Shown piece by piece: positions 51,121-55,221 of a stretch of 64,000 bases of DNA. The position numbers and the translations under genes were made by a program. Origin of the DNA: Hanstruepera marina (lineage in GTDB: Bacteria; Bacteroidota; Bacteroidia; Flavobacteriales; Flavobacteriaceae); contig NZ_JAINVX010000005.1 of assembly GCF_019880635.1 (NCBI RefSeq), positions 248,001-312,000 on the forward strand, given 5' to 3'. The first letter of the stretch is position 1. Every line of letters starts with the position of its first letter. The notes under the pieces are model-generated. The model was not told where the DNA came from. It did no database searches and saw only the letters and a list, made by a program, of their open reading frames with translations.

Positions 51121-52134
51121 ATGGCTGATGTAGTTGAAGAAATTCGCAAACGTATCCTCGTCCTTGATGGCGCTATGGGAACCATGTTGCAGCGTTATAA
51201 TTTTACTGAAGACGATTTTCGTGGTTCAAGATTCAAAGACTTTAAACATCCATTAAAAGGAAACAACGATTTATTATCCCTAACGCAACCCGAAGCTATT
51301 GCCGAAGTACACCGAAAGTATTTCGAAGCTGGCGCAGATATTGTGGAAACCAATACGTTTTCGGGAACAACCATTGGTATGGCAGATTACCATATGGGAG
51401 ATTTGGTATACGAGTTAAATTTTGAATCTGCAAAAATTGCTAAACAAGTTGCCGAAGAATTCACAAAAGCCAATCCTAAAAAGCCGCGTTTTGTAGCTGG
51501 AAGTATTGGACCAACAAATCGTACAGCAAGCTTAAGTCCAGATGTAAACAGACCAGAATATCGCGCAGTAACCTTTAACGAATTGCGCATAGCTTACAAA
51601 CAACAAGTAGAAGCCTTGATAGATGGTGGAAGCGATATTTTGTTAGTCGAAACTATTTTTGACACGCTAAATGCCAAAGCAGCATTATTTGCCATTCAAG
51701 AAGTTAAGGAAGAGCGCAATATTGATATTCCGGTTATGGTATCTGGTACAATTACCGATGCTTCTGGTAGGACTTTGTCTGGTCAAACTGTCGAAGCGTT
51801 TTTAATTTCAATATCACATATCCCGTTATTAAGTGTCGGTTTTAATTGCGCACTTGGCGCAGACCAATTGCAACCGTATTTAAAACGCTTATCTCACGAA
51901 ACCGAATTTTACATATCGGCACATCCAAACGCAGGATTGCCAAATGCATTTGGCGAGTACGACCAAACAGCCAAACAAATGCAACAGCTTATAGAAAACT
52001 ATCTAAAAGATGGTTTGGTAAATATTATCGGCGGTTGTTGTGGTACAACACCTGAACATATAAAAGCGATTGCTGAAGTTGCTGCTAATTACAAACCAAG
52101 AGCTGTCGGTTCGAGCGCAGTCGAGAACTTTTAA
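51121..52134 (+). CDS. metH: Methionine synthase part 1: homocysteine-binding domain
   Basis: A 337-residue protein equal to the first module of cobalamin-dependent MetH. 'RILVLDGAMGTMLQRYNF' and 'ETNTFSGTTIGMADY' lead; the three zinc Cys are in 'VGFNCALGADQL' and 'IIGGCCGTTPEHIKAIAEVA'. The second part is the next gene, 3 bp on, so MetH is split at a natural domain border as in many Bacteroidota. The last residues ('VGSSAVENF') are encoded by a repeat-like sequence and are not part of the fold. Confidence 0.95.
   Translation: MADVVEEIRKRILVLDGAMGTMLQRYNFTEDDFRGSRFKDFKHPLKGNNDLLSLTQPEAIAEVHRKYFEAGADIVETNTFSGTTIGMADYHMGDLVYELNFESAKIAKQVAEEFTKANPKKPRFVAGSIGPTNRTASLSPDVNRPEYRAVTFNELRIAYKQQVEALIDGGSDILLVETIFDTLNAKAALFAIQEVKEERNIDIPVMVSGTITDASGRTLSGQTVEAFLISISHIPLLSVGFNCALGADQLQPYLKRLSHETEFYISAHPNAGLPNAFGEYDQTAKQMQQLIENYLKDGLVNIIGGCCGTTPEHIKAIAEVAANYKPRAVGSSAVENF
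52103..52131 (+). repeat. Interspersed repeat-like sequence at the 3' end of metH part 1
   Basis: CTGTCGGTTCGAGCGCAGTC and the following GAGAACTTT form an imperfect palindrome around TCGA...TCGA. The core GAGCGCAGTCGA is a motif I know as a frequent intergenic repeat in Bacteroidota. Here it supplies the final codons of the gene. Confidence 0.5.
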
Positions 52135-52137
52135 TGT

Positions 52138-55100
52138 ATGAAAGAGAATAAAAACCGATATCTAAAACTTTCCGGTCTAGAACCATTAATAATAACACCA
52201 GAAAGCAATTTTATAAACGTAGGTGAACGTACTAACGTTACTGGTTCACGTAAATTTTTACGATTAATAAAAGAAGAAAACTATGCCGAAGCGTTGGATG
52301 TTGCTAGAGATCAAGTAGAAGGTGGTGCACAAATCATCGATGTTAATATGGATGAAGGTATGCTTGACGGAAAACACGCCATGGTAACCTTCTTAAATCT
52401 TATCGCATCAGAGCCAGATATTGCACGATTACCAATTATGATAGATAGTTCCAAATGGGACATTATCGAAGCTGGTTTGCAAGTCGTACAAGGTAAATCG
52501 GTCGTAAATTCTATCAGTTTAAAAGAAGGCGAAGCAACCTTTATTCATCATGCGAAACTTATTAAACGATATGGTGCAGCAGTAATTGTTATGGCGTTTG
52601 ATGAAGATGGTCAAGCCGATACCTATGAGCGCAGGATTGAAATCTGTAAACGCTCTTACAATATTTTGGTAAATCAAGTTCATTTTCCACCAGAAGACAT
52701 CATTTTCGATCCAAATATTTTTCCTGTAGCAACCGGAATGGAAGAGCATCGCTTAAATGCTTTAGACTTTTTTAATGCCACAAAATGGATTAAAGAAAAT
52801 CTACCTTACGCTAGCGTTTCTGGTGGCGTAAGTAACGTATCGTTTTCATTTAGAGGAAACAATGTCGTGCGTGAAGCCATTAACGCAGCATTTTTATATC
52901 ACGCGATTCAACACGGAATGAATATGGGAATCGTAAATCCAACCATGTTGGAAGTGTATGACGAAATTCCGAAGGATTTATTAGAACACGTTGAAGATGT
53001 ACTTTTTGATAAACGAGACGATGCAACCGAACGCTTACTACAATTTGCCGAAACTGTAAAAGGACAGAAAAAAGACGATGTAGCAAAAGTGCAAGAATGG
53101 CGAAGCGAACCTTTACAAGACCGCATTACGCACGCTTTGGTAAAAGGTATTGATGCGTTTATTGTTGAAGATGTTGAAGAAGCGCGACAAGTTGTAAATA
53201 AACCTATTGAAGTTATCGAAGGTCATTTAATGATAGGGATGAATGTGGTTGGCGATTTGTTTGGAAGTGGAAAAATGTTCTTGCCGCAAGTCGTAAAATC
53301 GGCTCGTGTGATGAAAAAAGCAGTCGCTTATTTGCAACCTTATATTGAAGCTGAAAAAAAAGCCCCTAAATCCCCAAAGGGGACTTTACATTGGAAAACT
53401 GCCGATCCATTACTTTATAGTTTACTAAAAGATTTTGCAAAACAGATGCGTAATCAACCTACTGAAGCCGAATCATTGTTGTGGAATGTTTTAAGTAATA
53501 AACAATTAGATGGTTTTAAGTTTAGAAGACAACATATTATTGGAAGTTATATAGCAGATTTTATTTGCCTTAAAGCCAACCTTATTGTTGAGGTAGATGG
53601 TTCAATACATCAATTACCAGAAAATAAAACTTCAGATGAAGAAAGAACAAAATGGTTAGAAAATGAAGGTTACCGTGTTGTTAGGTTTACTAATGAAGAA
53701 GTGCTGGGTAAGTTAGATGATGTTTTAACACGAATTAAGGAGAATCTTGCGGTTCCTCCTTTGGAGGTTAGGAGGCAGGGCAAGGTTCTTATGGCAACTG
53801 TAAAAGGCGATGTACACGATATTGGTAAAAATATTGTGAGTGTTGTTTTGGGTTGCAATAACTATGAAATAGTCGATTTAGGTGTTATGGTTCCGCCAGA
53901 AAAAATCATTGAAACTGCCAAAAAAGAAAATGTCGATGTGATTGGTTTAAGCGGATTGATAACACCTTCGTTGGACGAGATGGTTTATGTGTCACAAGAA
54001 ATGGAAAAACAAGGTTTCAATATTCCTTTATTAATTGGTGGCGCAACAACGTCTAGAGCACATTCTGCAGTAAAAATTGCACCACATTATTCCAATACTG
54101 TTGTACATGTAAACGATGCGTCTCGAGCTGTAACGGTTGTTGGAAATCTGTTGCAAAAAGACAACAAAGTGTATAAAGAACAGATTCGTGAGGAATACGA
54201 AAAATTCCGTGAACAGTTTTTAAAACGCGGTAAGCAAAAAGAATATGTCTCTATTGAAGAAGCACGTGAACGAAAATTTAAAATCGATTGGAAAACAACT
54301 GAAATTGTAAAACCAAAACAATTAGGAATACAAGATATTCAAGATTTTGATATTACTATTTTAGAAGACTATATCGATTGGTCGCCATTTTTTAGAAGTT
54401 GGGATTTACACGGAAAATATCCAGATATTTTAACCGACAATATTGTTGGTAAACAAGCTACTGAGTTGTTTAAAGACGCTAAAGTATTACTTCAAAAAGT
54501 ATTTGATGAAAAACTACTGAAAGCTAAAGCCGTTTTTGGTTTATTTCCAGCAAATACGGTAAATGATGATGATATTGAAGTAACGGTTGAAAACCAAATA
54601 CCAAACACCAAACACCAATTCCTAACACTGCGTCAGCAACTTAAAAAAAGAGAAGGCGTTCCCAATTTTGCATTAGCCGATTTTATTGCGCCTAAAGACA
54701 CAGGAATTCAAGATTACATCGGTTGTTTTTGCGTAACTACAGGTTTTGGAACCGAGGAATTAGCAAAAGAATTTGAAGCGAATCACGACGATTATAATTC
54801 CATAATGATTAAAGCATTAGCCGATAGATTAGCTGAAGCTTTCGCAGAATATTTACATAAAGAAGTACGTACCAAACATTGGAATTACGCTTCCGAAGAA
54901 CATTTAACTAACGAAGAATTAATTGCCGAAAACTATAAAGGTATCCGTCCAGCCCCTGGTTACCCAGCTTGCCCAGATCATTTAGAGAAAAAGACCATTT
55001 GGGATATTTTAAAAGTTGAAGAAACCATTGGTGTAAAACTTACCGAAAGTCTTGCGATGTGGCCAGCAGCAAGCGTAAGCGGTTATTATTTTGCAAATCC

Positions 55101-55221
55101 TGAAGCTAAATATTTTGGTTTAGGGAAAATTACCAAAGACCAATTGGAAGATTACGCTAAGCGAAGGAACATAAGCAAAGAAGCCGCTAATAAATGGTTG
55201 AATCCTAACTTAACAAATTAG
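52138..55221 (+). CDS. metH: Methionine synthase part 2: folate, cobalamin and activation domains, with DUF559 insert
   Basis: A 1027-residue protein. The pterin-binding domain starts at residue 23 ('[14 protein letters not shown]'). The cap domain precedes residue 409. The cobalamin domain has D558-x-H560-x-x-G563 ('[12 protein letters not shown]', His ligand H560). The activation domain near the end has '[18 protein letters not shown]', which binds SAM. Residues about 410-547 are foreign: a DUF559 restriction-endonuclease-like domain inserted between cap and cobalamin modules. Removing them gives 889 residues, the usual size. The frame is unbroken, so the protein is probably made with the insert looped out. 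Confidence 0.95.
53361..53385 (+). repeat. Left inverted end of the DUF559 cassette
   Basis: AGCCCCTAAATCCCC, AAA, GGGGACTTT: a 4-bp GGGG/CCCC hairpin preceded by a second CCCC. Its reverse complement (GTCCCC-TTTGGGGATTTAGGGGC) matches the right end with a few changes. Confidence 0.7.
53752..53777 (+). repeat. Right inverted end of the DUF559 cassette
   Basis: GTTCCTCC-TTT-GGAGGTTAGGAGGC: a CCTCC/GGAGG hairpin followed by a second GGAGG-type block, in inverted orientation to the left end. Confidence 0.7.

Follow-up and report, generated by a model that had tools for sequence, protein, structure and literature searches.

Where homing nucleases reside within conserved genes, they are usually associated with an intron or an intein, and in REP elements with RAYT a nuclease-type gene stands between inverted hairpins, with solo hairpins elsewhere. 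The EDxHD motif gives its name to a group of homing endonucleases, and free-standing homing endonucleases exist, as excerpts of one report describe (PMC3943268); therefore, a missing intron or intein leaves a wider class possible. Rickettsia palindromic elements (RPEs), which are approximately 150 bp long, lie in frame in protein genes and are tolerated by the protein, and no nuclease is named for them in the excerpted text (PMC10969869). For DUF559, excerpts of the literature propose one protein as a repair nuclease (PMC12907096) and describe DNA segments that combine a transposase with DUF559 as candidate hotspots of recombination (PMC12308824). As far as these excerpts extend, each ingredient of the element described below has a precedent, in EDxHD homing endonucleases, in REP hairpins with a transposase, or in Rickettsia palindromic elements. 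No description of a hairpin-ended DUF559 element inside host proteins was found in the open-licence literature, and no such element appears in the titles or abstract openings of open papers mentioning DUF559.

The window, meaning the whole stretch of 64,000 nucleotides of Hanstruepera marina that was analysed, carries a metH gene whose second part is interrupted by an in-frame block of approximately 415 bp, or approximately 140 residues (window 53362-53776; Table 1). The first-pass annotation had described a complete DUF559 domain within this protein, which profile searches confirmed (E = 1.9e-36 in the whole MetH protein and 6.1e-38 in the block alone; score 129.5 bits against a curated cut-off of 20.6), with the B12-binding_2 (residues 327-399) and B12-binding (residues 548-639) domains on either side. 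Its statements that the palindromic ends are inverted copies of each other and that the frame stays open through both joints also held, as the arms at 53362-53380 and 53758-53776 are inverted copies with 74% complementarity and the metH part 2 frame reads as one uninterrupted ORF from end to end. The 138 extra residues that it had counted correspond to a real block, but the net gain is 133 residues (155 versus 22 between fixed host anchors), with a 7-residue host linker being replaced by the block rather than added to. A loose pattern for the ends had four matches in the 3.28-Mb genome, two of which are the two ends of this element, while the reversed control had none.

Table 1. Features of the interrupted metH locus, in window positions
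Feature	Position	Strand	Remarks
metH part 1, upstream partner of host gene	51121..52134	+	open frame; name read from sequence
metH part 2, host gene	52138..55221	+	1027 aa; folate-binding, B12-binding and activation domains; interrupted in frame
element left end	53362..53386	+	inverted-repeat end; hairpin TCCCC-AAA-GGGGA at 53371-53383; in-frame peptide APKSPKGT
DUF559 (PF04480) Vsr-like nuclease domain	53425..53748	+	MetH residues 430-537
stretch with conserved D474, E485, D487, H491	53557..53610	+	conservation among in-frame copies
element right end	53752..53776	+	inverted copy of left end; hairpin CCTCC-TTT-GGAGG at 53755-53767; in-frame peptide VPPLEVRRQ
host bases directly right of element	53779..53799	+	4 bases common to filled G000 and G003; possible co-conversion tract

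The nearest solved relatives of the inserted domain are 3hrl, which is Neisseria endonuclease-like, and the catalytic domain of the homing endonuclease I-Bth0305I (3r3p), with profile E-values of 3.3e-34 and 2.4e-7 and, for a predicted model of the insert (mean pLDDT 80.3), Foldseek E-values of 4.8e-8 and 1.7e-4, respectively; the predicted structure of full MetH is of low confidence (mean pLDDT 66.6, pTM 0.38). With EDxHD homing endonucleases such as I-Bth0305I, the insert shares a homologous nuclease domain and fold, and its same-site relatedness and patchy spread are as expected of homing. In contrast to those enzymes, the metH nuclease is found in no intron or intein; it is translated within the host protein and has a hairpin on either side, and it is small (about 140 aa) and gave no match to an additional DNA-binding domain. 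Inteins are likewise in-frame inserts with a nuclease domain in basic proteins, but the MetH block has no matched protein-splicing domain. Like REP elements with RAYT, the DUF559 element is flanked by inverted hairpins and accompanied by solo hairpins elsewhere; unlike them, it encodes a Vsr-like protein, its host genome lacks a Y1 transposase, and many of its copies lie inside coding sequence. By description, it resembles RPEs in being palindromic and in frame in coding genes, and it differs from them in that the full-length element carries a nuclease. The inverted repeats at both ends are a feature of transposons with terminal inverted repeats as well. Vsr and DUF559 endonucleases belong to the same domain family, although the Caulobacter example is a free protein in the excerpt that describes it, whereas the MetH domain lies inside a host enzyme and has hairpin ends. 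The earlier view that the block is neither an intein nor a classic transposon is supported. Among the candidates rejected, an intron found no Rfam intron family at E up to 1 in the block region, where the frame is open throughout (two weak non-intron Rfam matches, far under the cut-offs, lie on the other strand), and an intein found no protein-splicing (Hint) domain in Pfam or NCBIfam searches of MetH.

The first-pass annotation had suggested aligning this MetH with close relatives, and these do have empty metH sites. Congener G004, whose metH is 91.8% identical in DNA to that of the window over the joined flanks, encodes just the linker DDSQRSN, in 21 bases, in place of the 140-residue block seen in the window, and within the window's genus G000 and G003 are filled while G001, G002 and G004 are empty with a short linker. 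Where the window has 155 residues, there are 22 in G004, G033, G032, G001, G002 and others, and the linker between the anchors is exactly 22 residues long in 28 of 39 empty sequences and 24 to 28 in the other 11. The family sample consisted of 397 genomes, 310 of which carry this part of MetH; as read from frame lengths and hosts among the matches listed, DUF559 lies within MetH in at least 11 of the 310, with ten at the site of the window (site 1) and one, G405, at a second site with site 1 empty of DUF559. Two additional filled MetH genes were found outside these, in G003 and in G042, the latter from another family of the order and containing a longer block with different hairpin ends. DUF559 is also missing at site 1 from eight more genus-mates, which represent seven genera that include a filled metH; for one of these, the genus of G405 and G249, the site in question is the second. 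The annotation had reasoned that a fixed domain would be indicated if all relatives were filled, palindromic ends were missing and no copies existed elsewhere; empty relatives, palindromic ends and further copies were all found, and DUF559 in MetH is not an ancient fixed domain. An assembly error was rejected because G003 and other MetH loci share the same arrangement. A target duplication was also sought; at the filled site the host linker is lost, and at one solo hairpin site the loop is too variable to show one.

A search for further copies, also proposed in the first-pass annotation, recovered them in other genes, as a second copy within one metH, and as solo hairpins. In genome G242, a single metH contains two DUF559 blocks, the second of which precedes the activation domain, and this represents one clear jump; the two copies agree from AGCCCCCC to GGGGGGGGC, while the flanks beyond are unlike each other, and identity is 76.6% over the aligned stretch, flanks included. 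This agreement delimits the ends, which are inverted repeats of approximately 25 bp that contain the hairpin CCCCC-AAA-GGGGG. Hairpin-ended copies of DUF559 also occur in frame in LeuS, RecG, IleS and MetH site 2, as well as beside HemD and HisD, and the types of element ends differ between host sites. The hosts of 73 distinct DUF559 sequences (names other than MetH being read from flanking sequence) were LeuS (25), MetH site 1 (12), RecG (10), HemD (9), MetH site 2 (2), IleS (2) and HisD (2), with 11 sequences free-standing; these tallies are not frequencies, because the sequences were fetched for high scores or long frames. The presence of DUF559 in LeuS is patchy, with frames of more than 1100 residues only in G006 and G027 among the relatives with this part of LeuS (58 of 60). 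One LeuS copy, L119 in G006, is strongly diverged, with the motif H lost, the D changed and no hairpin-like peptide at its ends, as would be expected of a dying copy. In some loci DUF559 is fused to the end of HisD (L057, L092) or placed in front of HemD (L045, L058, L061 and others); therefore, terminal fusion may be another way for the domain to be tolerated.

The relationships among these copies follow the host site. On the DUF559 tree (115 columns; good support for 12 of 70 inner branches, with 28 left unresolved), the host-site labels require eight changes, compared to a least possible number of seven and a shuffled mean of 43, with LeuS alone needing four changes and MetH site 1 needing three, and the MetH inserts from different genera fall mostly into one group. 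Since copies group by host site, spread is mostly between alleles of a single site, as in homing. Invasion of new sites seems to be rare, with each site mostly keeping its own lineages, which is the signature of homing and not of random transposition. The annotation's proposal of a mobile element that lands in tolerant loops therefore stands in part: the element is mobile, has REP-like hairpin ends and lies in frame in a tolerant interdomain loop, but the grouping by host site contradicts random landing. MetH site 2, at approximately 54577-54630, is empty in the window and is a second hot spot before the activation domain. In G033, G281, G002, G184 and G019 this site holds in-frame peptides of the CHAELDS or HAKLDSAS type, which are repeat-like and unrelated to the DUF559 hairpins.

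Hairpins occur both as pairs around the nuclease and alone. The pattern CCCCYHRRCCCCYNAAGGGG was found in 40 of the 397 family genomes, compared to a single match for the reversed control, and it goes with DUF559, being present in 34 of 188 genomes with the domain but only 6 of 209 without it (Fisher p = 4e-7, a count that includes the element's own ends); the window's genome has few hairpins. Among 20 regions fetched around solo hairpins, those of L166 and L171 (twice) lie clearly inside a protein and those of L175 and L178 near a protein end, while the hairpins of L160, L161, L163 and L172 are in frame near a start codon and may belong to a leader rather than the protein; the others lie between genes. 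In L171, an IleS of G152 by reading of its flanks, the two in-frame solo hairpins are approximately 25 residues apart. Across 15 loci (genus of G201), sequence in the loop of the L166 protein changes too rapidly for an insertion point to be placed, and G712 has its own in-frame hairpins in this loop. Within MetH, nuclease-free hairpin peptides were found near the N-terminus in G292, G421 and G074 and at site 2 in G203. Stem positions at both element ends covary more than in shuffle tests (2000 shuffles), which ignore the relatedness of copies: the right end had 115 of 135 pairs versus 106.6 expected and five double changes versus 1.4, and the left end had 84 of 100 pairs versus 78.5 expected and five double changes versus 1.5. 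A strict hairpin test on MetH loci, from which 8 of 80 were dropped for a missing anchor, identified the left hairpin in 56 of 72, the right in 57 and both in 43, compared to 0 and 4 of 72 in host-flank controls; these counts are low estimates because some windows were misplaced (the left hairpin of L180 was missed).

The nuclease residues are highly conserved among in-frame copies (E445, D474, E485, D487, H491 and D500). Across 61 such copies, a set that leaves out the very divergent L119 and L120, T442, E445, W449, D474, F475, D487 and R503 are identical in all, and E485 and H491 are kept in 60. The four residues that the first-pass annotation had singled out (D474, E485, D487 and H491) are therefore among the most conserved. 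In the wider set of 80 MetH loci, the D-F-x-C motif is present in 78 and the E-x-D-G-x-x-H motif in 77.

Presence of the block does not track the history of its host gene. On a tree of 51 MetH sequences with the insert removed (12 filled, 39 empty), the filled state needs 12 changes (bootstrap 12-12) while shuffled labels average 11, and therefore the filled sequences show no clustering whatsoever on the host tree; some empty sequences were picked as genus-mates, which raises the change count. The incongruence between the insert and host trees is modest. AU tests on an alignment of the 12 inserts reject the host topology (p = 0.011 for protein and 0.007 for codons), and the insert of G231 has identities of 0.77-0.78 to those of G000 and G003, compared to 0.73 for its host part, with G231 lying far from G000 on the host tree. 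However, the insert is more alike than the host part in only 2 of 66 pairs; the horizontal signal is therefore genuine but incomplete. Up to 600 bp to either side of the insert, G003 shares its base with the empty alleles of G004 and G095 against G000 at 51 sites, G000 does so with these two against G003 at 20 sites, and the filled pair G000 and G003 has one private site. The four bases that this pair shares within 21 nt to the right of the insert are found in none of five empty sequences, so that the private tract is short and on one side only. This flank mosaic fits copying of the insert with very short flanks, and reverse exchange, with empty alleles replacing filled ones, fits it as well. 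Between G000 and G003, a younger age of the insert than of the host was not significant (dS 0.30 versus 0.46, p = 0.08).

The block is probably a non-splicing homing element, compact and hairpin-ended, with a Vsr-like nuclease, that spreads by homing. The movement of the element is well supported, and the nuclease presumably drives it. The element, of approximately 415 bp, consists of two inverted hairpin ends of approximately 25 bp around one stop-free Vsr-like (DUF559) frame, with no splicing device. It is translated as one more domain, placed in a flexible loop of the basic enzyme, and therefore the host protein is still made, with the nuclease made along with it. At the same site, an active nuclease would then nick or cut an uninterrupted allele (or a hairpin), and repair templated by the filled allele would copy the element with very little flanking DNA. 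Rare jumps to another tolerant loop might follow, perhaps via solo hairpins already there, and solo hairpins themselves may be mobilised in trans.

There are several potential alternatives to this homing element. It is quite improbable that DUF559 is an old MetH domain, vertically inherited and lost many times, with its patchiness due to loss. The single group that MetH inserts mostly form across genera would agree with such a history, as would the clustering of G203, G242 and G421 in both the insert and host trees. However, a single gain at the root, placed on G042, would need 25 losses on the 51-sequence tree, yet the linker is of equal length in 28 of the 39 empty sequences; moreover, the inserts reject the host topology and the flanks of G003 side with the empty alleles. 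Somewhat less improbable, although still unlikely, is that REP-like hairpins are moved by another enzyme (e.g., a Y1/REP transposase) with DUF559 a passenger between two of them, and that spread at one site results from ordinary recombination. Y1_Tnp (PF01797) was found in 21 of the 25 hairpin-bearing genomes searched (25 of the 40), solo hairpins occur, including in the six genomes without DUF559, and ordinary homologous recombination can carry any insert. Nevertheless, Y1_Tnp had no matches in the window's genome and is absent from G031, G334 and G203, the hairpins associate with DUF559 (even if the element's own ends contribute to that count), and the nuclease residues are kept in nearly all copies.

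Least probable, and in our judgement very doubtful, is that the domain serves the host (e.g., in Vsr-type repair) and was spread by selection as a useful cassette rather than by its own activity. An excerpt of one report proposes a role in very-short-patch repair for VsrA, a DUF559 protein of Caulobacter (PMC12907096), and the insert is under purifying selection (dN/dS between G000 and G003 of 0.097, compared to 0.030 for the host part). Service to the host gives no evident reason for a place inside MetH, LeuS, RecG or IleS, however, and it leaves the hairpin ends and solo hairpins unexplained, while DUF559 is rare and patchy within genera.

More tentatively than for the homing element at this one locus, and with slightly less than even confidence, it is suggested that a separate class of mobile element exists across the Bacteroidota, namely a non-splicing homing element with hairpin ends, in which the nuclease is translated as a lasting domain of essential proteins and the solo hairpins are the non-autonomous form. 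If this is true, homing nucleases have another way to persist in conserved genes, requiring no splicing but a tolerant landing site and an open frame; in addition, it would offer a route, open to testing, for the gain of new domains by proteins and a possible driver for hairpin repeats that lack a known enzyme. Annotation calls for caution, as a nuclease domain foreign to their known function is present in the MetH, LeuS, RecG and IleS proteins of various Bacteroidota.

Beyond the family, a scan of one genome per species across 84,980 species identified 474 relatives of the MetH-type insert. MetH site 1 accounts for 78 of the best 80 of these 474, including two that are truncated on the left, and site 2 for the other two. 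Relatives include records labelled Winogradskyella, Lutibacter, Formosa, Polaribacter, Aquimarina, Flavobacterium, Salegentibacter, Gillisia, Croceitalea and Marivirga, the last of which belongs to another order; three records labelled Bifidobacterium or Nitrotoga are metagenome bins and are probably mislabelled. Across the phylum, DUF559 was found in 170 of 296 genomes, and among the matches listed many lie in frames of more than 1000 residues; one of nine new loci fetched from this set is a MetH. Candidates that were rejected include phage cargo (viral contigs contained 13 relatives of DUF559, with identities no higher than 42%), plasmid cargo (40 records from plasmids, all below 60% identity) and a known defence protein (no PADLOC match). 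Four phylum-wide loci (L273, L275, L278 and L280) have an in-frame DUF559 with hairpin-coded peptides near both ends inside proteins that, by reading of their flanks, are restriction-modification-like.

The window's own genome contains four DUF559 matches, comprising the metH block, two free-standing genes of 121 residues and one partial Vsr-like match. The partial match (L004, contig C4) spans two overlapping short frames near ribosomal-protein-like genes. The two free-standing genes (L002 and L003, contig C5) are flanked by a different hairpin family, which resembles the double hairpins around free DUF559 copies in other genomes.
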